Shown: positions 14,960 through 39,747 of the stretch, one piece after another | Numbering within the stretch: position 1 is the stretch's first letter | Layout of the letters: every line of letters begins with the position of its first letter | IMG/VR virus record: IMGVR_UViG_3300043449_000699 | Location: 1-39,811 of that record | Strand: one strand, 5' to 3' | Length of the DNA stretch: 39,811 bases | Origin: a virus | The notes under the pieces: generated by a model | Seen by the model: the letters and a program-made list of their open reading frames with translations, nothing else | Told to the model about the DNA's origin: nothing | Database searches by the model: none | Position numbers and translations under genes: made by a program

Positions 14960-15322
14960 TTACGCGAGGAAGCGCAGTTTGTAGAGGGAGGCGTAGTAAT
15001 GCCCCACAATTTCGTCAATGATGTTCTGAATCGGCGTGTTGTCGCGTTCGCAGACCTTGTAGCGACCCGCCTGAATGTCTTCTACCTGACCCTGCAAGAA
15101 CTCCACGATGTTCGTGGTCTTGCGGGCAGCAGGCACGGAGATGGGGCCAATCAGCCCGTGGTAGCCCTGATAGGCTTCCGCAAACTTGTCGGCAAGGTCA
15201 ATCACGCCTTCGTAGAAGCCCTGTAGGGCAACGTGCTTGGCGTAAGACCGCGTGTTCAGGTGCGTGCTGTGCGCCACATCACGGGCGAGGAACAGCAGCC
15301 CGACTAGTTCGTTCGGTTTCAC
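14960..15322 (-). CDS. DUF5856-like helical protein
   Basis: A 120-residue, mostly helical protein with GTG start overlapping the portal stop (GTGA). 'AHSTHLNTRSYAKHVALQGFY' followed by 'VIDLADKFAEAYQGYHG' gives His and Glu/Asp residues spaced as in four-helix Dps/ferritin-like bundles. I relate it to the phage family DUF5856 from memory, where the function is not known. Position just after the portal is usual for this family. Metal binding is possible but not proven. Confidence 0.6.
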   Translation of the reverse strand: MKPNELVGLLFLARDVAHSTHLNTRSYAKHVALQGFYEGVIDLADKFAEAYQGYHGLIGPISVPAARKTTNIVEFLQGQVEDIQAGRYKVCERDNTPIQNIIDEIVGHYYASLYKLRFLA

Positions 15323-17502
15323 TGCATCATCTCCTGCGGCGGCTGCATCGGCATCTCGCCTTCGTTGAACTCAGGCATTTCCATCTGCGGCATATCGCCA
15401 ATCAGGTCGCCCGTCTGTATGGCGGCAGCAATAGTACCAGCCACAATGTCCTGAATCTGCTCCTCGGACATACCGGCCTGCACGGCGGAGATACGCTGCG
15501 TCTCGGCTTGGTAAGCCTTGATTTCAGCCTCGTAGTCCTTCCGCTTCTGCTCCTGCGACTCGATGGACTTGGCGACGTTCTGGAGCATTTGGTGCATCTG
15601 CTCCATCTCCTGCCCCATAGCCTGAATCTGCTGATTCGCGGCTTCCAAGGCGGGATTCTCGTCGTTGTCCTGCAGCAGTTTGGGGTCAATCGTCTTCTGC
15701 AGACGCTTGGCCATCTCCTGCGCACCCGGCCAGTCCATGTTCTTTACGAACAGGTCGCCAGCCACCTGCCACAACTGCGGGTTGCCCTGCAGAATCTGCG
15801 ACATGGCCTCCATCGACTCCTGACGCTTGGTCATGTACGACGGACCAGTAGTCACGCAGACATCGTACTTGCCGACAGACGGATTGTAGATTTTCTCAAT
15901 CACAATGCCCGTCTCGTCCACGATTTCGCGGACAGGCTCAGACTGCATAGGGTCTATGCGTGCCGTCTTAGTCTCACCGTCAATGCCGATGATGCGAGCA
16001 ATGCGCTGAGTGTCGTAAATCTTCGGGATGAGGTCAACGAGTTGGCGCGTGACGTAGCGAATAGCGCGAGCCAGGTTGTCTACGTAGTGGTATGTGCCGG
16101 TGTCGCCTTGCCGTTCACGCGCCAAGATTGCCTTGCCGGAACGCTCGTTGGACGTTTGCCCAATGCTGGAGTCGTACTGACCGGTCGTAGCCTTGATGTC
16201 GTCCGCAGCGCCCATCTTGGCCTGAATGAGACCAACCTGAGCCATCGGCGGCTGCGCGCGCTGAGGTAGCGGCAACACCGAACCCGAGCCGTCCGTAACG
16301 TCCGGATTGACCTCAAGGTACGGCCAGTTGTTCGTGTTGGCAGTCTTCCACTGCTGCTCGTAGCCCTCAAACTGCCCGCCGTAGCCGATGAACGGGGCTT
16401 TCGGGGCAAGGGCAAGCATCTCGGCTTCTTGCGAGACCCAGTAGTTGTACATCCGCTGGGCGTCTTTGGCGTTGCGCACCAAGCCCGAGACGTACAGGCG
16501 ACCGTCAACTTCCCACTCGTTGCCGACAACGCGCACGACAGGAATCCACTTGCCCGCCCAATCGCGCTGCTCAAGAATCTCGTAGCCGTTGGTCTTGCAC
16601 CATTTCACGGTCTTTACGTCCGTGGGGCGCTGGCGCAGGATGGGCATACCCATCGCCTCGGCACGCTTGGCCTCGGGCGAACCCTCAATAGCCGTGACGT
16701 TACCGGGGTACAGGTTCAGCGTTTTGCGTTCGTACTCAAGGTAGAAGTACTCGGCAATGCGGACGGTCTTGTCGCTAATCCACTGCGACAGCCCCTGGTC
16801 ACCTATACCCCGCGTCATAATGGACGAGATGGGTTCGGCGTCAGGGAATTGACGCTCGTATTCGTCCCGCGTCAGGTCTTCCGTGATGAAGCACCATTGA
16901 GCATCCGCACCGCAAGGGTCTTGGATGGTGGGGTCCATGTACACGGAAAACGAGTTGCGAATGCGCTGGATGCGGATGTCTTGGTCAAAGGTGTCCGTAT
17001 CGCAGTACTCAGTCAGCACGCGAATGTAACCTTCACCGTAGGTGACTTGGTTGTCACAGGCGGTGTCGTAGGCTACGTCAGCGTCCGAGATGTACTCAAT
17101 ATGCCGCACGATGCCGTCGAATATCTCGGCAACCTGCAGGTCAGCCTTGTCATCTACGGGGATGACTTTTCCCGAGGGCCGGTTCTGCCGTTGGTCGTTG
17201 GTGACCTGACGAACGTGCTGCGGCAGCTTGTTGATGGTCAAACAGGGGCGAGCATTGATAGTCTGCCCCTGCACCGACCCTCGGGTCGCTAGTACGTCTG
17301 CGGGCCACTGCCACTGATTGTCAGGGCTGGCGGCAAGAAACCGCAGGTCGTCTAGCTCATCCTCGCGGGAATCGCCGTAGGCACTGATGGCCTGCGTAAA
17401 GCGAGTCCGAGCGACGGCGAGGATGTCAGTGGCATCCTTGTCACGACGGGAGGATGGGCTGTTAGCCACCCGCGCCGCGCCAATCATGCCGGTATCAGCC
17501 AT
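15319..17502 (-). CDS. P22-like portal protein
   Basis: A 727-residue protein, close to the size of P22 gp1 (725). The start chosen is 'MADTGMIGAARV', two bases after the terminase stop; a longer ATG at 17520 is possible. Family features: 'NKLPQHVRQVTNDQRQNRP' near residue 100, 'QDIRIQRIRNSFSVYMDP', 'AKDAQRMYNYWVSQEAEM', 'GQTSNERSGKAILARERQG' and a long Gln/Glu-rich C-terminal coiled coil ('NQQIQAMGQEMEQMHQM'). In P22 such C-terminal helices form the barrel. Twelve copies form the DNA channel to which terminase docks and gp4 binds. Confidence 0.92.
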   Translation of the reverse strand: MADTGMIGAARVANSPSSRRDKDATDILAVARTRFTQAISAYGDSREDELDDLRFLAASPDNQWQWPADVLATRGSVQGQTINARPCLTINKLPQHVRQVTNDQRQNRPSGKVIPVDDKADLQVAEIFDGIVRHIEYISDADVAYDTACDNQVTYGEGYIRVLTEYCDTDTFDQDIRIQRIRNSFSVYMDPTIQDPCGADAQWCFITEDLTRDEYERQFPDAEPISSIMTRGIGDQGLSQWISDKTVRIAEYFYLEYERKTLNLYPGNVTAIEGSPEAKRAEAMGMPILRQRPTDVKTVKWCKTNGYEILEQRDWAGKWIPVVRVVGNEWEVDGRLYVSGLVRNAKDAQRMYNYWVSQEAEMLALAPKAPFIGYGGQFEGYEQQWKTANTNNWPYLEVNPDVTDGSGSVLPLPQRAQPPMAQVGLIQAKMGAADDIKATTGQYDSSIGQTSNERSGKAILARERQGDTGTYHYVDNLARAIRYVTRQLVDLIPKIYDTQRIARIIGIDGETKTARIDPMQSEPVREIVDETGIVIEKIYNPSVGKYDVCVTTGPSYMTKRQESMEAMSQILQGNPQLWQVAGDLFVKNMDWPGAQEMAKRLQKTIDPKLLQDNDENPALEAANQQIQAMGQEMEQMHQMLQNVAKSIESQEQKRKDYEAEIKAYQAETQRISAVQAGMSEEQIQDIVAGTIAAAIQTGDLIGDMPQMEMPEFNEGEMPMQPPQEMMQ

Positions 17503-17504
17503 AT

Positions 17505-19028
17505 TTACGCACCCATCCAAGAATTGCTTACAGTGCCGTCCCTGTAGGTTCGGACGGGGTTTCGCGCAGTATACTCCCGATGCGCCACGGGGAAAGCAAA
17601 AGTTACCGCGATGGCATCCGCAGCGTCCGGAGAAGCCAGCCCACGGGCTTTCATCTCCTTCTTCCCCTCAAGGAAGATAGTACCCGAGGAGTTGGGCTTT
17701 TTCAGCGGGCCAACGAGGTCAGCCTTAAGCTGCCGGTCCTCCTTCAGCGAGGCGGTACGCAGCCAATCCCGCATAGCCCCCCACATTTCAGCCCGTTTGT
17801 TGCCCCACGCCACAGGGTTCTTGGCCTTCCAGCCAAAGTTGACGCCACGGACTTTGTACTTCTGCTCGGTCAGGCGGTCTAGGATGCCGTAGCCCAAGCC
17901 GCCCTCGTCAATGACCGTCAGGGCAGGCCGGTAGTCCTCAATCGCCTCGATTACCCGCCCGACGATGGTCATCGTGTCCTCACCGGAGTACCGCTTGAGG
18001 GCGATGATGTCGCGACCTTGGCGGACGGCAATGACGGTCGAGTCCGCGCCACCACGGGCAGGGTCTACGCCGATAACAATAGGGGCGGTCTCATCCTTGT
18101 ACTTTGGGCGCTTAAACGCCTCATCTACCCAGTTTGCGGGGATGAATTGGTCATCACCGGCAGACGGGAACTCCCCGTACACCTCAATCTTTGCCTGGGG
18201 CGAGTCTTCACCGTATTCGTCGATGATTTGCTGGTAAACCGCCCTGTCCGTACCCTCAACATCCAGCGAGTTGATGTTTTTGGACTTCCAAAACGCCCGT
18301 TTGGCGGCAAAACACTCGAAAAAGTAGCCGGAAGGTCTACGAGGGTTGGAAAACGCCATCCAAAAGCGGTGCGGCGTGTTCTCGGTGAAAAAACCTTGGC
18401 TGACATCCCAGATGGCGTCCGGAATACCGCTGGCTTCGTCGAAAATCAGCATCACGCCGTCGTGGTTATGCACACCAGCGTAAGAATCGGGGTTCTCCGC
18501 AGACCAAAGTCGGCCTTCTACCGACCAGTAGCGGGTGCCTTTCCGCAGGTCGCGCTCCACCAACTCCGTAATCCACTTGGCGGGCATGACGCGGGTAGCC
18601 GATATCTCCCACCAGTGGCTGTTTATCAGCATCGCCAGCCATTTTGTGATTTCCGCCCATGTGACCGAGCGAAGCTGGGCTTCCGAGTTAGCCGAGACGA
18701 TGATGGTGGACCCGATGCGGGTAGTGACCATCCACAGGATGAGCCACGACACCAGTGCCGACTTGCCGATACCGCGACCGGAAGCCACCGCTAGCCGAAA
18801 TACGTCGAAATCTACCTTGCCGTTGTTCGCCGCGATGTGGTCTTTCAGTTCCCGCAGCACGTTCCGCTGCCACTTACGCGGGCCACGGAAGTGTTCTAGC
18901 GGCGTACCCTTCTCGCCCCACGGAAATGCAAAGTTGACGAACGCCTCTGGGTCGTTGGCAAGTGCCGGTGACCATAGCTTAGACATGAGCAACTGCTCAT
19001 CGGCAGAGGAGTAGCGCGGTTCCTGCAT
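17505..19028 (-). CDS. terL: terminase large subunit
   Basis: A 507-residue packaging motor. The ATPase domain has Walker A 'SGRGIGKS' (83-90) and Walker B 'VMLIFDEASG' with Asp197-Glu198. The RNase-H-like nuclease has acidic residues Asp322 in 'VIGVDPARGGAD', Asp374 in 'VIDEGG' and Asp468/471 in 'SPDAADAI'. All catalytic elements are present. It is joined by TAATG to the metallopeptidase-like gene and precedes the portal gene. With a P22-type portal, headful packaging is expected. Confidence 0.95.
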   Translation of the reverse strand: MQEPRYSSADEQLLMSKLWSPALANDPEAFVNFAFPWGEKGTPLEHFRGPRKWQRNVLRELKDHIAANNGKVDFDVFRLAVASGRGIGKSALVSWLILWMVTTRIGSTIIVSANSEAQLRSVTWAEITKWLAMLINSHWWEISATRVMPAKWITELVERDLRKGTRYWSVEGRLWSAENPDSYAGVHNHDGVMLIFDEASGIPDAIWDVSQGFFTENTPHRFWMAFSNPRRPSGYFFECFAAKRAFWKSKNINSLDVEGTDRAVYQQIIDEYGEDSPQAKIEVYGEFPSAGDDQFIPANWVDEAFKRPKYKDETAPIVIGVDPARGGADSTVIAVRQGRDIIALKRYSGEDTMTIVGRVIEAIEDYRPALTVIDEGGLGYGILDRLTEQKYKVRGVNFGWKAKNPVAWGNKRAEMWGAMRDWLRTASLKEDRQLKADLVGPLKKPNSSGTIFLEGKKEMKARGLASPDAADAIAVTFAFPVAHREYTARNPVRTYRDGTVSNSWMGA

Positions 19029-20098
19029 TACTTGGTCAACTCGCCCATTGGCGTATCGTAATCAAGGCCAGGAAAACGCTGCCTGCGTTCAGACCACGAC
19101 AGATTGCGGCGGGCAGCAGTAGCACGGGCTTCTGCCTCGCCCATCAGGTTGCGGTAGCGCCTAAAGGATTCTGTTTCAACTAGGTCGCGGCGTTGTTCCT
19201 TGGTCAGCGCAGCCCACTGTTGCGGGTTGTTTTGCTGCAGCGTTTGCTCTACCTCACGGTAAAACTGATTCGGCACGCCACCAGGCGCAAAGCCCTCTAG
19301 TTTTTGCACAACGTGCTGCAACTCATGCGCCGTAGTGTCCAGCGCACCGCCTTCCGTTTTGTTGTAGGCAAAGATGCCGACAGGCCGGTTGGTCATAGTG
19401 GCAAGTTCGCCACCGCTGCTAGACGAGTCAGGCACCCAATCCGGCAATTTGCGAGCGTTTACCGACAAAGACTGCACTTCTGGATAGGCTGCCGTCAGTT
19501 CCGGTGCCGACAAAGCCTCCGTAAGAGGTTTAGCGGGCGGGTACTGAAACTTGTTTTCCTCAGTCAACCCGCGTTTGGCAAAGTCGTCACGAAACCGCAC
19601 ATCCTTGTCGCCAATCTCTTGACGCCAGTTGCCATCAGGCCCGCGCCAAGTGCCGGTAGCCGACCAAATCTGCTCAGGCGATGCGCCTTGGCGTTCCATT
19701 TGCACGGCAGCAGCAGCGCGATTGTCGTTCCACGTCTTAGACTTCGGGCCAACAAAAATGTCTTTTTTCAGCGCCTTACGCGGCTTCAGCCAGTTCCGCG
19801 GGTCTATATTCTCGCCCACCACCTCGCCCAACCCCGCAGGGCTGGACTTGGCACGGTTCCACATACCACGCAGGGAGTTGCCTACTACGCCAACAGGGTC
19901 TTGGGCAAACTGCGCCATGCCCTGCACTACACCCTGCCCTAAGGCATACGGGTTCTCGTAGGACTGCTGTACCAACTGCAGCGGGCTAACCACGAACTGA
20001 TTAGCCAACCCACGCCCCACACCACCGACAAACTGCCCAGTGTTCTGCAGATAGTTTGGCGAGGGCGGCACTAGCGCATTACGAGTACCCGGCGGCAT
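19028..20098 (-). CDS. polyvalent-protein metallopeptidase-like domain (LPD23-like)
   Basis: A 356-residue protein. The C-terminal half carries 'TTAHELQHVVQKLEGFAPGG' (His258, Glu259, His262) and then 'LMGEAEARATAARRNLS', giving the HExxH plus downstream Glu of a zincin; this pair matches the LPD23 group of large polyvalent protein-associated domains. 'DYDTPMGEL' closes the protein. The N-terminal ~110 residues are Gly/Gln/Pro-rich and look like a virion-targeting or linker region. Lying between the two terminase genes, it may be packaged and injected to act on a host protein, or may process a virion protein. Role inferred. Confidence 0.65.
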   Translation of the reverse strand: MPPGTRNALVPPSPNYLQNTGQFVGGVGRGLANQFVVSPLQLVQQSYENPYALGQGVVQGMAQFAQDPVGVVGNSLRGMWNRAKSSPAGLGEVVGENIDPRNWLKPRKALKKDIFVGPKSKTWNDNRAAAAVQMERQGASPEQIWSATGTWRGPDGNWRQEIGDKDVRFRDDFAKRGLTEENKFQYPPAKPLTEALSAPELTAAYPEVQSLSVNARKLPDWVPDSSSSGGELATMTNRPVGIFAYNKTEGGALDTTAHELQHVVQKLEGFAPGGVPNQFYREVEQTLQQNNPQQWAALTKEQRRDLVETESFRRYRNLMGEAEARATAARRNLSWSERRQRFPGLDYDTPMGELTK

Positions 20099-24200: not shown

Positions 24201-24228
24201 ACCCGGCCTAACCCGCCGGGTTTTTTTT
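24201..24228 (+). terminator. intrinsic terminator of the small-gene block
   Basis: ACCCGGC and GCCGGGT form a 7-bp GC-rich stem with a 7-base loop, followed by eight T's (24221-24228). This is a textbook rightward terminator. The T-run touches the stop codon of the convergent helicase gene, so it cleanly separates the two opposed transcripts; it has no T-run in the other direction. Confidence 0.88.
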
Positions 24229-25640
24229 CACTGCACCAATCGCAAGCTGGGGAAATGCTCTTCTAACGCATCGCGGCATTGGTGATTATTCATTGTCGCG
24301 TATTTACTATTAGGCGCGACGTATATTACCCGTTTATTCGGATGCCGCACGCTTGCGATATTACCGCGGTTAATCCAGCCGGATAACTCGATAATGCTGG
24401 ATAATACCTTTATCGGTATTGTGCCGCGTCCCATTATCCCTTCCATTCGCCGTGCAATATCGGTCCACGGCCCGCCGATTATCCCCTCCGCGAACACTCC
24501 GCGCCTGGCACGAATGTCCGCCAGCAATGTTTCCTCTACGCTTTCCTGCCGTACATTCAGCAATCGGCGCTTGGCATCCGTCATGGGAGGGGGCGCGGAC
24601 GGATTGAAGGCCGATAGGACGCGCTGAGAGAGCCACCATGCCACGATTGCCACGCCCCCGCTACCGTACCAGCCCCACAGGGCGGAGGCCTCGTCCTGCG
24701 CCATCCTAGGGGCATCGCTCCACAGGACGAACCATCGCCTATCGTCGTCGCTCAGGTGCATAGCATCGCGGAAGTTAGACATTGCAATTGGCAGGCCGCG
24801 GTTTAGCGCAGGGTATGGATGCTGCATTTTCCGATTAACCATTATTAATTCGGGCGGTGCAGCACAAAGCACTTTCATAAACTCTTCCACGGCACGCTTG
24901 TCACGATTAACTCCGCGCCGCAATTCGTTCAGCACCAATACCTCATTTTCCAACGCATAACCGAACTGGCTGATTATGTCCTCGCCACGCACGACGGCGA
25001 CGTTTTGCAATTGCGGTCCGCCGATGGCCTGAAGGAACGGGTGCAGGGCGGAGTCCTTACCGGAGCCGGGGTGGCCCGCCAGCAGGACGCCGTGATTCAC
25101 CTTCCGGTCCGGGTTCTGAAACTTGAAGGCCAGCACGTCCAGCAGGTGATTACGCTCCCACTCGCAAGGCAGCAACCGGGCCAGATGGTCCAGCCACGGG
25201 CTGGCGTCACCCGGCTGGGGCGTCACTCGGGCATTGCGCCACAGGTTCCCCCAAGCCTCGCCGTGCCGTTCCAGCAGGGGGCCAGCGCCAGGGGCGTACG
25301 TTAGGCCCGCCGCTATCACGCCACCCATGGCGGCGCGATTCTCGTCGAACGAGTTGCTGGCGTGGATGGGGTGGCCGGTGTGGATAGAGTTGCACTTGAC
25401 GTGCCGATAGTGCGCGTTAAAGGACTGCCGAGTGATGGGCCTGCGGTGGACCATATCGAAATACCCGTCGGCGTCGGCAAGGTACGCGAACCGGCTGAAC
25501 CACTCGGCTACCGGCAGGCTGGATATGTCACGGGCGGCAACGGCCTCGGCAGCTTGCAGGATACTGGCGGGAGTCTCGCCAGCGGATGCCATGCGGGCAG
25601 CGGCAGCGGCTAGGGCTTCGCTCAGGGGCTTGTCTGTCAC
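24228..25640 (-). CDS. SF3-type helicase (DUF5906 / NrS-1 primase-helicase-like)
   Basis: A 470-residue protein. The GTG at 25640 overlaps the previous stop (GTGA) and has GGGAGG about ten bases before it, so I prefer it to an ATG at 25712. 'NHGVLLAGHPGSGKDSALHP' holds Walker A, 'EVLVLNEL' a Walker-B-like strand, and 'GLPIAMSNFRDAMHLSDDDR' then 'RWFVLW' the sensor region of phage superfamily-3 helicases next to primases. The N-terminal 170 residues are a short unknown domain without an obvious primase motif. It probably unwinds phage DNA as a hexamer. It ends the replication operon. Confidence 0.8.
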   Translation of the reverse strand: MTDKPLSEALAAAAARMASAGETPASILQAAEAVAARDISSLPVAEWFSRFAYLADADGYFDMVHRRPITRQSFNAHYRHVKCNSIHTGHPIHASNSFDENRAAMGGVIAAGLTYAPGAGPLLERHGEAWGNLWRNARVTPQPGDASPWLDHLARLLPCEWERNHLLDVLAFKFQNPDRKVNHGVLLAGHPGSGKDSALHPFLQAIGGPQLQNVAVVRGEDIISQFGYALENEVLVLNELRRGVNRDKRAVEEFMKVLCAAPPELIMVNRKMQHPYPALNRGLPIAMSNFRDAMHLSDDDRRWFVLWSDAPRMAQDEASALWGWYGSGGVAIVAWWLSQRVLSAFNPSAPPPMTDAKRRLLNVRQESVEETLLADIRARRGVFAEGIIGGPWTDIARRMEGIMGRGTIPIKVLSSIIELSGWINRGNIASVRHPNKRVIYVAPNSKYATMNNHQCRDALEEHFPSLRLVQ

Positions 25641-25951
25641 GAGATATCGACCTCCCGAAGCGTGTACCGGCCCGTTTTTCCTTTGGTCCATCCCTGCACC
25701 AGAATCCGCCACCCGGCTTCCCGTAGCAGGGGCAGGGCGTCACTCTCAGTGATTTTTTTGATACGGGCGGATACGTTGGAACCGGAGGTCGATTGTACCC
25801 CAACCGTGCCTTCCGGCCCGACGCAGACAATGTCGATGATGCCGAACAAGTCTTGCCGGATACGGGCGTGCGGGTTCCACTTTTCCACAACGGCGACCAG
25901 CGGGTATCGCTTGCGCAGGTCCGCGAGAGACCGCTGAGTTGGGCTGCTCAC
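25637..25951 (-). CDS. PD-(D/E)xK-type nuclease-like protein
   Basis: A 104-residue protein with a restriction-fold look: Glu23 in 'VVEKWNP', 'RIRQDLFGIIDIV' with Asp40, and 'VGVQSTSGSNVSARIKKI' where Gln53-x-Thr55 takes the place of the usual ExK. Similar small phage proteins share the 'DLFG..D' and 'VQxTS' motifs. It may cut branched or specific DNA during replication, or the changed motif may mean weak or lost activity. Coupled by ATGA and GTGA to its neighbours. Confidence 0.6.
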   Translation of the reverse strand: MSSPTQRSLADLRKRYPLVAVVEKWNPHARIRQDLFGIIDIVCVGPEGTVGVQSTSGSNVSARIKKITESDALPLLREAGWRILVQGWTKGKTGRYTLREVDIS

Positions 25952-26151
25952 GCCAGCACCGCCATGTCCACGGTAAACCCTGGCGTGTCAGTGTCGGGGT
26001 CGTCAGGGATGCGCACGCCCAAAATGGCGAAATTTTCAGTTTTCTCACGGGGGTTGCCACGGGCAAGCCATGTCCACGGAGTGATGGTTTGATAGGGCGT
26101 CAGGCGGTAGTTCGCCATAACGTAGGCCGTCAAATCGGACATATTGCTCAT
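25948..26151 (-). CDS. unknown small protein in the replication operon
   Basis: A 67-residue protein starting 'MSNMSDLTAYVMANYRLTPY' and including 'TPWTWLARGNPREKTENFA', then an acidic stretch rich in Asp, Pro and Thr. It overlaps both neighbours by ATGA. It could be an accessory partner of the loader or the nuclease-like protein. No family recognised. Confidence 0.5.
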   Translation of the reverse strand: MSNMSDLTAYVMANYRLTPYQTITPWTWLARGNPREKTENFAILGVRIPDDPDTDTPGFTVDMAVLA

Positions 26152-26918
26152 TTGCGGTAACTCTCCCAGTCCAAACGCAGTAACTTGCCGCCACCTTCCC
26201 GCATCCGGTCCATGATGCGCTCGCCCAAGTAGGCGGTGATATCGGCTTGCGTTAGGTTGGATATTAAAACGGTAGGCAACACGTTGTTGTACCGCTCATT
26301 CATGGCCTCAAACAGAATTTGTTTTTCGTGGTCGCTACCGCTGCTAGCGCCGACCTCGTCTAGCACTAGCAAATCCGGCTTGGTATACCGTTGCATCACC
26401 TGCTTTTCCGTGTGCTTTGCGCCGTCTTTGTAGCACTCCCGCACTGCGGCACTGAAGTCAGCTACGGTGGAGTACTGCGTTCGATAAAACATCAAATCCA
26501 AGGCACTCACGATAGCGCACCCAAGGTGAGTTTTGCCGGTGCCAGGATTGCCAACCAGTAGCAGGGAAGTTCCTGCCTGCTGGCGCTCAGTGAAGGTTTT
26601 TACAAACCATTCCAGTCGCTTTACGGCCTTTGCCTGACCGTCGTTGCTGACCGCGTAGTTTTCCAAGGTTGCCCGCCGGTAGCGCGTTGGGATGCTTTCG
26701 GGCGGCTCCCGCACTGCAACGGCCTGTTTCGCATGAGCGCGGACTTTTTCCACATCGGCCTCCCTTGCCGCTTGCTCGGCGATGTACTCGTCCGTGCAAG
26801 TGGGGCAGCGACTCAGAGGCTTTGCCCTGCCGAGAAAGTACAAGGGGGCGCACTGGAACGTCCCGTGTTTTTCGCAATTGAACGTCATAACGTCCACCGG
26901 CAAATTAGATTGCGTCAT
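26148..26918 (-). CDS. DnaC-like helicase loader
   Basis: A 256-residue AAA+ protein starting 'MTQSNLPVDV', with GGAAGGAG nine bases before the ATG. N-terminal cysteines (15, 23, CxxC at 38-41) suggest a zinc site. Then 'TRYRRATLENY', Walker A 'GNPGTGKTH' (123-131), Walker B 'DLLVLDEVGAS', and a sensor-1 region 'PTVLISNLTQADI'; the C-terminus has 'ERIMDRMREGGGKLLRLDW'. These are all DnaC/IstB-type features. It would load the host replicative helicase at the phage origin. Its start overlaps the initiator gene's end by 14 bases. Confidence 0.9.
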   Translation of the reverse strand: MTQSNLPVDVMTFNCEKHGTFQCAPLYFLGRAKPLSRCPTCTDEYIAEQAAREADVEKVRAHAKQAVAVREPPESIPTRYRRATLENYAVSNDGQAKAVKRLEWFVKTFTERQQAGTSLLLVGNPGTGKTHLGCAIVSALDLMFYRTQYSTVADFSAAVRECYKDGAKHTEKQVMQRYTKPDLLVLDEVGASSGSDHEKQILFEAMNERYNNVLPTVLISNLTQADITAYLGERIMDRMREGGGKLLRLDWESYRK

Positions 26919-27678
26919 CTGGCTTTGCTCCTTCCCAGTAATCGACGTTGGCAAAGTTTCGGGCTATTGAGAAACGGGGGTCTTTCGTGGGCTTGCCTGC
27001 CTGCTTCAGCGGAAACAGTCCCTGCCAACCTTGGGCTATGGATTGCTCCACCACGGCGGCTTGGTTCGCGCCATGCTTGGCAAGGTCCACGGCGGCGGAA
27101 AGGAAGCTGACGGGGCGCAGGGGCTTACCGATGCCTTTGCGGTAAGCCACCCACTTTTGCCAAACCTCTTCGTCAAGACCAGGTATCGACATAGGAACTT
27201 CAGGCTGAACAACCGGCGCGGTAGCGCCATTCTTCTTTCCTTTCCCTTCCTTTCCTCTCCCTTCCCTTCCTTTCCCTTCCGTCCACGAGCCATCGCCGAA
27301 TTGTCCCTGAGTACTCGACGAGTCCTCGACGAACACTCGCTGAGTACTCAGTGAACAATCATAGTCGGGACAACGCGGAGCAGACGGGCGGTCTATCTTT
27401 TGATGCCTATGGAACCCATTGATATGTAAGAATATTTTTCCATCAACTTCGTACTCTGTCAGGAGCCTGAGTTTGAGTAACTCACGCACCAGTTTCTCTA
27501 CGTCAACCGTGTCGTATGGGAAAACCTGCACCTTCAGTTGCTTGGTTGACCGCTCCAGGTTGCCGCGGTCATCAGCAATGTTCCAAGTGGCAATGAACAG
27601 CAAGCGGGCAGGAATAGAGCACTCCCCTACCGTTTCATCCGTCCAAAACTCCGGCTTAATTGTCCGGATGCGAGGCAT
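26905..27678 (-). CDS. phage replication initiator (lambda O / DnaT-like)
   Basis: A 257-residue protein; start 'MPRIRTIKPEFWTDETVG', with AAGGAG seven bases before. That opening and 'ARLLFIATWNIADDRGN' followed by 'LKLRLLTEYEVDGKIFLHIN' are typical of winged-helix replication initiators. A disordered linker carries a Lys/Gly/Glu/Arg run (about 133-149), and the C-terminal part ('VWQKWVAYRKGIGKPL', 'SIAQGWQGLFPL') is common in proteins that bring in a helicase loader. The gene contains an 11-base repeat array (27303-27357), as lambda's origin lies inside O. It directly precedes the DnaC-like gene. Confidence 0.85.
   Translation of the reverse strand: MPRIRTIKPEFWTDETVGECSIPARLLFIATWNIADDRGNLERSTKQLKVQVFPYDTVDVEKLVRELLKLRLLTEYEVDGKIFLHINGFHRHQKIDRPSAPRCPDYDCSLSTQRVFVEDSSSTQGQFGDGSWTEGKGREGRGKEGKGKKNGATAPVVQPEVPMSIPGLDEEVWQKWVAYRKGIGKPLRPVSFLSAAVDLAKHGANQAAVVEQSIAQGWQGLFPLKQAGKPTKDPRFSIARNFANVDYWEGAKPDDAI
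27230..27280. repeat. 51-base uninterrupted pyrimidine tract (purine on the coding strand)
   Basis: Every base from 27230 to 27280 is C or T on the plus strand, built of CCTTT, CCCTT and similar units (TTTCCCTTCC at 27241 and again at 27271). It encodes the Lys/Gly/Glu/Arg linker of the initiator. It lies 22 bases from the iteron-like array. Such tracts can form triplex or unwind easily, which would suit an origin. Confidence 0.75.
27303..27357. repeat. iteron-like 11-base tandem array, candidate replication origin
   Basis: Five adjoining 11-base units: GTCCCTGAGTA, CTCGACGAGTC, CTCGACGAACA, CTCGCTGAGTA, CTCAGTGAACA. The period is about one helical turn and is not a multiple of three, so the repeat cannot come from a protein repeat. 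It includes a perfect palindrome CTGAGTACTCAG (27340-27351). Position inside an O-like gene, between its winged-helix and C-terminal parts, is as in lambda. Strong candidate for initiator binding; not proven. Confidence 0.65.
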
Positions 27679-27922: not shown

Positions 27923-28129
27923 CTAGCGCGGCTTGTAGCCCGTCATGGTGTACGAGGCCCACTTCTTGCCCTTGCCGTACACCATCTCCGTGTCGATGAG
28001 AAAGCCTTCCTCCTTCAATTTGAAAATTACCGCTGCCAGGCGAAAGCACCCGTACAGGCGCAATGCCTGCATGGGCGTGATGGCCTTACCGTTGCCCAAG
28101 TGGGAACGAATGCGGTCAATCTGGCTCAT
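27923..28129 (-). CDS. small helix-turn-helix protein (HTH_39-like)
   Basis: A 68-residue protein starting 'MSQIDRIRSHLGNGKAITPM' with GGAG eight bases before. 'ITPMQALRLYGCFRLAAVIF' followed by 'KLKEEGFLIDTEMVYGKGKK' is the winged helix-turn-helix of a very common phage family. It overlaps the Cro-like gene's end by 14 bases. It likely helps control the replication or early genes. Confidence 0.75.
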   Translation of the reverse strand: MSQIDRIRSHLGNGKAITPMQALRLYGCFRLAAVIFKLKEEGFLIDTEMVYGKGKKWASYTMTGYKPR

Positions 28130-28373
28130 GCTCAGTCTCCACGGCAGGGGTACGGGGCCACCGGCCTTCCGGCAGGTCACGGGCAGCGATGCCCAGCGCG
28201 TATGGCGGCAGCGGGCAGTCAGCCTTGAGCTGCCCACCAGTCATGCGCTCCAACTGGAACTGCCACTGTTGCGGAACATCGCGCCAGGCAAGCACGGCTG
28301 AGTGGGTCAGCCCACACGCTCGGGCCACCTTGCTAGCGTTACCGAAAAATTCAAAAACTTCATCGCGGGTCAT
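28116..28373 (-). CDS. Cro-like (P22-Cro/YdaS type) transcription regulator
   Basis: An 85-residue protein with GGAG six bases before the ATG. 'MTRDEVFEFFGNASKVARAC' then 'GLTHSAVLAW' is the helix-turn-helix of the P22 Cro/YdaS family, and 'QFQLERMTGGQLKADCPLPP' is the usual following motif. It is first in the leftward replication operon and faces the rightward operon, so the 103-base gap should hold its operators. No CI-like partner is present, so it may be a simple autoregulator rather than part of a lysogeny switch. Confidence 0.8.
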   Translation of the reverse strand: MTRDEVFEFFGNASKVARACGLTHSAVLAWRDVPQQWQFQLERMTGGQLKADCPLPPYALGIAARDLPEGRWPRTPAVETEHEPD

Positions 28374-31863: not shown

Positions 31864-32036
31864 CACCACAGGAACAAGTGCAACTTGCCCGTTACAAAGA
31901 GGCAACTGTGCGCTCGGATGACACGATAGCGGCACTGGAGAAAGTGGTTGCTGCGCAGAGGGAGGTTATCGACCTGCTGCACGCGCAGATTGGCAAGATG
32001 GAAAGCAACCTACAGGAACTGAGGGCGGCACTGTGA
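31860..32036 (+). CDS. small coiled-coil protein
   Basis: A 58-residue protein starting 'MTPQEQVQLARYKEATVRSD'. Heptad-like spacing runs through 'TIAALEKVVAAQREVIDLLH' and 'IGKMESNLQELRAAL', so it is likely one continuous coiled coil. It overlaps the previous gene (ATGA) and the methyltransferase start (GTGA). A similar short coiled coil follows the methyltransferase (33040), so the two may be related or partners. Confidence 0.55.
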   Translation: MTPQEQVQLARYKEATVRSDDTIAALEKVVAAQREVIDLLHAQIGKMESNLQELRAAL

Positions 32037-33043
32037 AGTACCTGTCCGTGTGTTCGGGCATAGAGGCCGCGACGGTTGCCTGGCACCACATGGGCTGGGA
32101 GCCGGTGGCGTTCAGCGAGATTGAGAAGTTCCCGTCAGCCGTGCTGGCGCATCACTATCCGTCCGTCCCTAACTGGGGCGACATGACCCGCTTTAAGGAA
32201 TGGCCCGATGCAAATGTCGATGTTCTCGTCGGAGGAACCCCATGCCAGTCCTTCTCAGTCGCCGGACTCCGAAAGGGACTGGATGACCCGCGTGGCAACC
32301 TCATGCTCACCTACGGAGCAATTGCGCGACGTTATCAGCCACGTTGGCTTGTCTGGGAAAACGTCCCCGGTGCTTTGTCGTCTAACGGAGGGCGAGACTT
32401 TGGAGCCTTTCTTTGGATGCTGGCGCAATGCGGGTATGGGTGGGCCTACCGAGTCCTGGACTCTCAGCACTTCGGAATCGCTCAACGCCGTAGAAGAATC
32501 TACGTTGTTGGATATCGTGGAGATATGCAACGTTCCGCCTCGGTACTTTTTAAGTCAGCAGGCAGCGGACGGGATACTGCGCCGACTCAACCGAAAGGGG
32601 ATGTTACATGGTGGAACGGAAACGCCGTAAGCCAAACGCTGGACGCCGTGCTTTACAAGGGACAGATGATGCCGGAGAAAAACAGGTTTCCGGTGTTGGC
32701 CCTTGGCGAAAAGTTGTGTTCAGCGCCGACTGCGACGAAGACGGAAATTGCCCGAGTTGCGGAATTGACTACGCCGAGTGTGACTGTCCTGGACCAACTC
32801 AGAACGAACGGTATGAGTACAGCTTCCGAAAGGACGGCACAATGTGGGCGCGTCGTCTTGCGTCGGGTGATGCCGATTGAGGCGGAAAGGCTGATGGGCT
32901 TTCCCGACGACTACACAAACATCCCCTGGCGCAACAAACCCGAGTCACCAGATGGTCCGCGCTACAAGGCGCTTGGAAACTCAATGGCAGTACCCGTAAT
33001 GCGCTATATAGGCGAACGAATCAACGAGGTAAGCAAACTATGA
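32033..33043 (+). CDS. C5-cytosine DNA methyltransferase
   Basis: A 336-residue enzyme, GTG start overlapping the previous stop. Motif I 'LSVCSGIEAATVAW', motif IV 'GGTPCQSFSVAG' with catalytic Cys71, motif VI 'WENVPG', motif VIII 'QRRRRIYVVG', and motifs IX-X 'MGFPDDYTN' and 'ALGNSMAVPV' are all present, so it should be active. It would methylate phage DNA against host restriction; the target is unknown. Residues about 224-275, where the target-recognition region lies, look unlike any relative I recall and are read in another frame by a nested gene. Two nested frames are listed separately. Confidence 0.92.
   Translation: MKYLSVCSGIEAATVAWHHMGWEPVAFSEIEKFPSAVLAHHYPSVPNWGDMTRFKEWPDANVDVLVGGTPCQSFSVAGLRKGLDDPRGNLMLTYGAIARRYQPRWLVWENVPGALSSNGGRDFGAFLWMLAQCGYGWAYRVLDSQHFGIAQRRRRIYVVGYRGDMQRSASVLFKSAGSGRDTAPTQPKGDVTWWNGNAVSQTLDAVLYKGQMMPEKNRFPVLALGEKLCSAPTATKTEIARVAELTTPSVTVLDQLRTNGMSTASERTAQCGRVVLRRVMPIEAERLMGFPDDYTNIPWRNKPESPDGPRYKALGNSMAVPVMRYIGERINEVSKL
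32208..32630 (+). CDS. nested gene in the +1 frame of the methyltransferase
   Basis: A 140-residue frame wholly inside the methyltransferase gene. AAGGAA lies seven bases before its ATG, a good ribosome-binding distance. The product ('ERDWMTRVATSCSP', 'GKTSPVLCRLTEGETLEPFF', 'GMGGPTESWTLSTSE', 'YFLSQQAADGILRRLNRKG') matches a protein I recall in many phages, each time with these same motifs. Part of that conservation follows from the methyltransferase frame, so real translation is not certain. No function is known. Confidence 0.5.
   Translation: MQMSMFSSEEPHASPSQSPDSERDWMTRVATSCSPTEQLRDVISHVGLSGKTSPVLCRLTEGETLEPFFGCWRNAGMGGPTESWTLSTSESLNAVEESTLLDIVEICNVPPRYFLSQQAADGILRRLNRKGMLHGGTETP
32608..32880 (+). 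CDS. nested small zinc-ribbon-like gene in the +2 frame of the methyltransferase
   Basis: A 90-residue frame that starts 22 bases before the other nested gene ends and has AAAGGGG seven bases before its ATG (a GTG at 32716 is another possible start). The last 50 residues, 'DCDEDGNCPSCGIDYAECDC' then 'PGPTQNERYEYSF', are a well-known stand-alone small phage protein with CxxC and CxC pairs, probably zinc-binding. In the methyltransferase frame the same bases give an unrecognisable sequence, so this frame, not the enzyme's, seems the older here. Confidence 0.6.
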   Translation: MVERKRRKPNAGRRALQGTDDAGEKQVSGVGPWRKVVFSADCDEDGNCPSCGIDYAECDCPGPTQNERYEYSFRKDGTMWARRLASGDAD

Positions 33044-38988: not shown

Positions 38989-39747
38989 TTAGCCTCCCGG
39001 CGGAGCGTAAGGGCCGGGGCCGTACCCCGCGCCACTATAATCAACAAAAGACCCCGGCGCACTGCCGCCGCCCATCTTATTAAAACCGTATTGCAAGCCA
39101 GCGTTGGCAAGGCTGTTTAACGCACCGCCCCACGCGTTTGCCTGCCCCATGTAACCGGAGGCACGGGCATTACCGGCGTTCTGCAGGGCGTTGCCAGCAG
39201 CAGCAGCGTAGTTAGCCGAGGACGCATTTTGCGCGTTGGTCGCGTTAGCACCCGCCGTCTGCTGGCCGGTCAGCATCTGATACCGCTGGCTGCGGTTCTG
39301 ATTGTAGCGGTTGTAGGCGTTCTGGTATTCCTGCGAACCCATGTCCTGCCCGTACCGCGCCGCAGCTTTGAGTGCCGCACCGGAAATCATGCCGCCGCGT
39401 GCAGCCGCCTGACGGTCCAGTCCCTTCAACCCTTCCTGCAAACGGAATGCGTAGCCGGGGTCGGCCTCAAAGTCGGCAGCAGAGAAGTCGCGCAGCAGGT
39501 TGCCGTAGCCTGCAGAGGCAGGGTCACCGGCAAGGCCAAACTGGCGCTGCAGTTCAGCGGTAGACAGCAGGCCAGCCTGACGGAACGGCTCTTGCCGCGC
39601 CACTTGGTCATAGTACTGCTCACGCTGCAACTGGCGGTCTGCTTCCGCGGCTTGCTGCTGCGCCCGTGACGCGCTGCGAGAGGCGCTAGCGCCCATCGCT
39701 CCTGATGCTATGGTGCCGACTGCGGCGGCTGCAAAACCCCAAGGCAT
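38989..39747 (-). CDS. internal virion / ejection protein
   Basis: A 252-residue protein. 'MPWGFAAAAVGTIASGAMGA' is a hydrophobic Gly/Ala helix, then 'QREQYYDQVARQEPFRQAGL', 'SAADFEADPGYAFRLQEGLK' and 'DRQAAARGGMISGAALKAAA' with 'SQEYQNAYNRYNQNRSQRYQ'. This series is a recurrent signature in podovirus DNA-injection proteins. Asn/Ala/Gly-rich C-terminus. It continues at the left end of the window (1-65) when the circle is closed, two bases after the oxygenase-like gene. Confidence 0.78.
   Translation of the reverse strand: MPWGFAAAAVGTIASGAMGASASRSASRAQQQAAEADRQLQREQYYDQVARQEPFRQAGLLSTAELQRQFGLAGDPASAGYGNLLRDFSAADFEADPGYAFRLQEGLKGLDRQAAARGGMISGAALKAAARYGQDMGSQEYQNAYNRYNQNRSQRYQMLTGQQTAGANATNAQNASSANYAAAAGNALQNAGNARASGYMGQANAWGGALNSLANAGLQYGFNKMGGGSAPGSFVDYSGAGYGPGPYAPPGG

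Follow-up and report, generated by a model that had tools for sequence, protein, structure and literature searches.

The DNA analysed here, an IMG/VR fragment classed as linear (IMGVR_UViG_3300043449_000699; 39,811 nucleotides, referred to as the window), contains a replication-initiator gene in whose coding sequence similar units follow each other every 11 bp. This raises the question of whether the array is a replication origin or has another cause. The initial annotation had described five adjoining 11-base units at 27303-27357. The array is real and was confirmed to be longer, with seven contiguous units at 27285-27361, and the frame chosen before lay about 4 bp off the dyad register. Very probably it is a phage replication origin lying within the gene of the initiator that acts on it; the winged helix of this protein would bind the 11-bp iterons in a lambda-O-like or pSK41-like manner.

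Read directly, the plus strand at 27307-27361 is CTGAGTACTCG ACGAGTCCTCG ACGAACACTCG CTGAGTACTCA GTGAACAATCA. The core common to the array units is a 10-bp dyad, YGAGNNCTCR, and the looser form YGANNNNTCR describes all seven. Three perfect YGAGNNCTCR sites were found in the whole window, all of them within the array. The perfect 12-base palindrome which had been noted at a unit boundary was recovered (CTGAGTACTCAG); it is the only perfect match to the family consensus TGAGTACTCA, and the sole 9/9 consensus site, in the window. The units, with CGAG and TGAG mixed, are more divergent than those of the enterobacterial relatives.

The period-11 score of the array was matched by 0 of 2000 codon-usage and 3 of 2000 codon-permutation randomisations, in which the same protein is kept, and the match of five units to the consensus of the relatives by 0 of 2000 in each of two codon randomisations. 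For seven units the match amounts to 46.5 of 49 with a null maximum of 44.5, and none of 5000 codon permutations reaches the array score. On both strands of the whole window the array is the top-scoring chain, and no other place comes near it.

Table 1. Features of the initiator region in the window (coordinates of the 39,811-nucleotide stretch).
Feature	Coordinates	Strand	Remark
Replication-initiator gene, 257 aa, probable ATG start 27678 (MPRIRTIKPEFW...)	26905..27678	-	phrog matches
Part coding the predicted N-terminal winged-helix DNA-binding domain, residues 1-110	27349..27678	-	AlphaFold pLDDT 84-98
Least stable DNA near the array, GC about 0.40, alternative candidate unwinding element	27380..27470	none	inside winged-helix coding sequence
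Putative iteron array, seven contiguous 11-bp units, 77 bp	27285..27361	-	score 46.5/49; conserved in relatives
Unit TGATTGTTCAC (coding strand)	27351-27361	-	
Unit TGAGTACTCAG (coding strand)	27340-27350	-	
Unit CGAGTGTTCGT (coding strand)	27329-27339	-	
Unit CGAGGACTCGT (coding strand)	27318-27328	-	
Unit CGAGTACTCAG (coding strand)	27307-27317	-	
Unit GGACAATTCGG (coding strand)	27296-27306	-	
Unit CGATGGCTCGT (coding strand)	27285-27295	-	
Perfect 12-bp palindrome CTGAGTACTCAG	27340..27351	none	direct reading
Pure homopurine tract, 51 bp, (GGGAA)n-like, candidate strand-opening or single-strand-binding element	27230..27280	-	see run test
Part coding the C-terminal helical domain, about residues 168-222, O-like/DnaT-like	27013..27177	-	phrog_678 and model helices
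DnaC-like helicase loader gene, start inferred at ATG 26918 (ORF runs to 26954)	26148..26918	-	overlaps end of initiator gene

The N-terminal domain of the initiator matches profiles of phage replication initiation (phrog_1408, 2.6e-33; phrog_16167, 3.8e-30; phrog_2149, 3.2e-29). A longer ORF, which starts with GTG and extends to 27903, probably does not mark the true start; the three phrog matches begin at residue 76 of this ORF, and all aligned relatives begin with M-x-RIRT. In the AlphaFold model, residues 1-110 form a confident winged helix, residues 112-160 a disordered linker and residues 170-221 the C-terminal helices. The fold matches of the N-terminal domain are winged helices, including the RepA-type plasmid initiators 4pql, 4pt7 and 5kbj (Z 7.5, 6.7 and 6.5 for residues 1-91), which are tied with unrelated winged helices. 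In the search by fold for a lambda O or RepA_N match, many kinds of winged helix tie. The C-terminus matches phrog_678, 'replication initiation O-like' (5.8e-13), and the family profile matches DnaT chains with E-values from 8.5e-12 to 4.3e-10. A Pfam search of the initiator returned zero families at E up to 1, so neither RepA_N (PF06970) nor the DnaT-like domain PF17948, the latter being matched in the relatives L042 and L099. Among the relatives the C-terminal part is modular and can be DnaT-like, O-like or DnaD-like. The array encodes residues 106-131, nearly all of which belong to the low-confidence linker that joins the winged helix to the C-terminal helices. Both the array and the adjoining purine tract are located in the linker-coding part of the gene, where the protein accepts almost any codon. 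In L105 (ORF about nt 340-560), L094 and phrog_5718, an HNH-endonuclease-like segment lies between the winged helix and the C-terminal part, and the linker resembles a site at which domains are exchanged.

Since a blastn search of the array region against phages found no matches, the comparison with relatives was built on protein-anchored loci. These relatives, taken from viral contigs, genomes, phage records and plasmid records, were confirmed by tblastn and their sequences were read directly. Chains of the strict unit are present in 32 of the 36 other dereplicated relatives (33/37 counting the window), the commonest form being TGAGNACTCA at 11-bp spacing in the linker. The 132 linker units of the 32 dereplicated loci yield the consensus TGAGNACTCAN, in which T8, C9 and A10 are nearly invariant. 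The unit, next to a GA-rich tract, was found in prophages and phages with Enterobacterales, Thiosymbion, Kordiimonadaceae and Pedobacter as hosts or sources, and units in Corynebacterium and Streptomyces phages look alike by eye. Phages and prophages from several bacterial phyla thus retain the DNA pattern, also where it conflicts with the coding of the protein. The search of relatives with the same initiator, which the initial annotation had proposed as a test, thus found the repeat again at the same place.

The generalised unit YGANNNNTCR shows a significant period of 11 in 32 of 55 loci, and periods of 8, 9, 10, 12, 13, 14 and 16 in 0-1 of 55. As this form was defined after the loci had been inspected, the contrast between periods is the fair part of the test and not the count of loci. 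In a consensus-free scan, period 11 ranks first with z>3 in 29 of 52 loci; the second rank of period 10 is due to the 5-bp purine repeat. Among the held-out plasmid-borne relatives, L113 passed the strict TGAGNACTCA test and L111, L112 and L114 did not (p 0.1-0.3). The generalised YGA....TCR test was passed by L111 and L114, but both had been seen before it was defined. For the distant initiators L101-L104 and L106, no significant match to the generalised unit was obtained. Three additional units occur in most enterobacterial-type relatives within the part of the gene that codes for the winged helix (ORF nt about 199-235, peptide THGLLTEYSV); they exceed the codon-permutation expectation (p<0.02) in 25/36, and this second cluster is absent from the window. 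A literature search for the repeat sequence itself, covering mostly open-access literature, returned unrelated papers only.

The subfamily of L091 (ORF nt 330-404), L093 and L099, which has a DnaT-type C-terminus, carries another 11-bp repeat, GTAC..GTAC, with a 7-bp GGGATCA tandem after it; this suggests that the letters of the iteron diverge while the spacing is kept. That every winged-helix subfamily should have an iteron of its own is supported only in part, namely by these three loci and by Vibrio phages with CACGCGTCAA; members from Pedobacter and Corynebacterium whose helices diverge retain TGA..CTCA, and for this reason no residue-to-base code is proposed. In addition, 8-bp tandems, (GGGGAACA)n or (GGAACAGA)n, were identified in the linker of L104, L108 and L110 (Gordonia, Mycobacterium and Propionibacterium phages), whose initiator genes are annotated as 'RepA-like' or 'replication initiation protein'. 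They are possibly quadruplex-forming elements. In L108 and L110, CGAG/CTCG-type repeats adjoin them.

The homopurine tract lies directly beside the array on its C-terminal-coding side. It has about 52% GC and contains zero pyrimidines on the coding strand; no other 50-mer of the window is as extreme (0 purines on the plus strand). Its run of 51 compares with a null mean of 18.4 and a maximum of 42 (p=0.003), and the run length is significant in 14 of 54 loci, the window among them. The density of G and GG is not above the codon-preserving null, so that the tract can be called regularly repetitive and long in its homopurine run, but not G-rich in excess of coding demands. Similar tracts follow the array in relatives, with a unit of 5, 7 or 8 bp depending on the phage, which is usually not a multiple of three; in the MARxRNIKPxFF subfamily the tract has the opposite strand sense (CCTGATT). 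Due to this opposite sense and the missing excess of G, a single opening mechanism for all loci is uncertain. On the other side of the array, the 60-bp stability at 27380-27470 reaches -1.28/-1.29, beyond the 99th percentile of the window (-1.319). The corresponding AT-rich stretch at ORF nt 210-300 is only slightly conserved among the loci (mean -0.07 GC).

The initiator gene is followed by the loader gene (phrog_50 DnaC-like helicase loader, 4.8e-66; IstB_IS21, 1.4e-17), and in relatives, too, a DnaB-like helicase or DnaC-like loader gene often comes next. Behind the loader, a primase/helicase-like gene is located at 24228-25712 (phrog_1156 DNA primase, Pfam DUF5906), and possibly the phage has a primase-helicase of its own in addition to a loader for the host DnaB. 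Further genes encode a C5-cytosine DNA methyltransferase (32033-33043, plus strand, Pfam 1.8e-52) as well as portal (phrog_156), terminase and DNA-ejection proteins (15319-20098 and 38989-39747). By its portal and ejection proteins, the window probably derives from a P22-like podovirus, one whose early region is of the lambdoid type. The cumulative GC skew, suggested earlier as a check, has its minimum near 28-30 kb; it was rejected as origin evidence and is uninformative, because the minimum falls at divergent gene orientation, where the coding strand changes.

Could the array instead be an operator, to which the initiator or a repressor binds for control of the replication operon, with replication starting elsewhere? 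The palindromic 10-bp sites do resemble repressor half-sites, and a Cro-like gene (P22_Cro-like) is present at 28116-28373. However, the array is located about 320 bp inside the gene and not at a promoter, operators seldom have 3-9 phased copies, and none of the perfect YGAGNNCTCR sites lies upstream of the operon. Conservation along with the initiator and a G/A-rich tract behind the array also fit an origin, and the operator is improbable.

The repeat could furthermore be selected as a peptide, an 11-residue linker repeat (S-x-S-T-H-G-x-L-T) with the DNA periodicity as a by-product. The encoded protein had been called not repetitive, which does not hold: three units make 33 nt or 11 codons, giving a weak 11-residue repeat in the window (..STQRVFVEDSSSTQ..) and a strong, clean one in relatives such as L003. 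Yet the 11-bp period takes the units through all three codon phases and hence into different peptides, the linker is predicted to be disordered, and codon permutation that keeps the protein abolishes the signal. At codon phase 0 the opening TGA would be an in-frame stop, and exactly there T is replaced by G, C or A: T is the first base in 0 of 75 units at phase 0 vs 127 of 139 in the other phases (Fisher 2e-45; units chosen blind to their first base). The phase-0 units begin with GGA, or with CGA as in the window, and this change causes the 33-bp super-period in the output of Tandem Repeats Finder. Such avoidance of stops by codon phase is decisive in showing that the motif is held at the DNA level, as DNA and not as protein. 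Here the initial annotation is borne out by independent tests (codon phase, period contrast and conserved unit), and a peptide-level origin of the repeat is already largely refuted and highly improbable. The locus is a clear natural example of a single stretch of DNA carrying two codes, in which stops are dodged unit by unit.

Neutral tandem duplication by slippage, in favour of which linker DNA is free to vary and L003 has a recent 33-bp triplication, has next to no probability and is already refuted by the conservation of the unit across distant hosts, as loci whose initiators are only 26-45% identical to that of the window share consensus, spacing and place, and the copies within one locus are old and diverged with the dyad still kept.

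The reading as iterons inside an O-like initiator gene, offered from the start, is the best supported one, given the phrog initiation families, the O-like C-terminus and the DnaC-like loader next to it. For such an origin, we infer that dimers of the N-terminal winged helix would bind the seven palindromic iterons, which follow at about one per helical turn and therefore lie near one face of the DNA. The nucleoprotein complex would destabilise one of its flanks: the neighbouring (GGGAA)n homopurine run, or else the AT-rich DNA at the opposite end of the array. The O/DnaT-like domain at the C-terminus, which the disordered linker keeps attached, could then hold the single-stranded DNA and pass it to the DnaC-like loader, which would load the host DnaB. 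A more general architecture across several bacterial phyla is possible, if doubtful: 11-bp YGAG-NN-CTCR iterons would be followed by a short-period G-rich tract, such as (GGGAA)n, (GGGAACA)n, (GGGGAACA)n or (GGGATCA)n, instead of an A+T-rich element, and the tract would be opened or kept open by strand asymmetry (R-loop, G-quadruplex or sequence-specific binding of single strands by the DnaT-like domain). This makes testable a G/A-rich tract in place of the A+T-rich unwinding element of textbook origins. The unit also provides a sequence rule for locating origins in many temperate phages and prophages; most of their initiators carry the annotation 'hypothetical protein'.

Origins within the initiator gene have precedents in lambda O (PMC5043065), SPP1 oriL in gene 38 (PMC6316719) and pSK41 rep (PMC5703833). 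With ori-lambda in gene O and the O origins of Stx phages, the array shares dyad-symmetric iterons, presumably initiator-bound, in the middle of the gene between the DNA-binding and C-terminal domains, a tract of special composition beside them, a helicase-loader gene next and a C-terminal domain related to O-like proteins. Of the likeness to lambda claimed at first, the mid-gene place is upheld, whereas the winged helix belongs to families other than lambda O and the period scan gives units of 11 bp, each with a dyad, and not 18-19 bp. The window has seven contiguous units, in contrast to four to six repeats of 18-19 bp in lambda and Stx phages (PMC5043065, PMC7466680), a DnaC-like/IstB AAA+ loader in place of lambda P, and on the C-terminal side a homopurine G/A tract where lambda has a 40-bp A+T-rich region (PMC5043065, PMC7466680). 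The array would work like ori-lambda and departs from it in three defining details, i.e., iteron length, A+T-rich tract and P-type partner.

In RepA_N initiators (pSK41, pTZ2162), an N-terminal winged helix binds semi-palindromic repeats in the centre of the rep gene that encodes it, the linker encoded by the origin can be dispensed with as protein, and the C-terminal domain is modular (PMC5703833). The window agrees in having a predicted winged helix, whose RepA-type fold matches tie with unrelated ones, in the central repeats and in the modular C-terminal domain. It differs in lacking a Pfam RepA_N match; moreover, RepA_N iterons converge on poly-A tracts (PMC7145576), and their partner is the primase DnaG and not a DnaC-like loader. 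SPP1 also has direct repeats in gene 38 to which the initiator binds, together with genes for a helicase loader and a helicase (PMC6316719), but its unwinding element is AT-rich, and the likeness is one of arrangement. The same N-terminal family (phrog_2149/1408) includes the 'RepA-like replication initiator' or 'replication initiation protein' of Gordonia, Mycobacterium, Arthrobacter and Streptomyces phages, for which no description of iterons was found in the open-access literature. These phages show 11-bp repeats in PFR1 and PSonyx and (GGGAACA)n or (GGGGAACA)n tracts, although iteron letters and tract unit are unlike those of the window. Taken with these systems, the array appears to be a variant of the intragenic iteron origin, with phased repeats in the initiator gene that are conserved at the DNA level together with the initiator.
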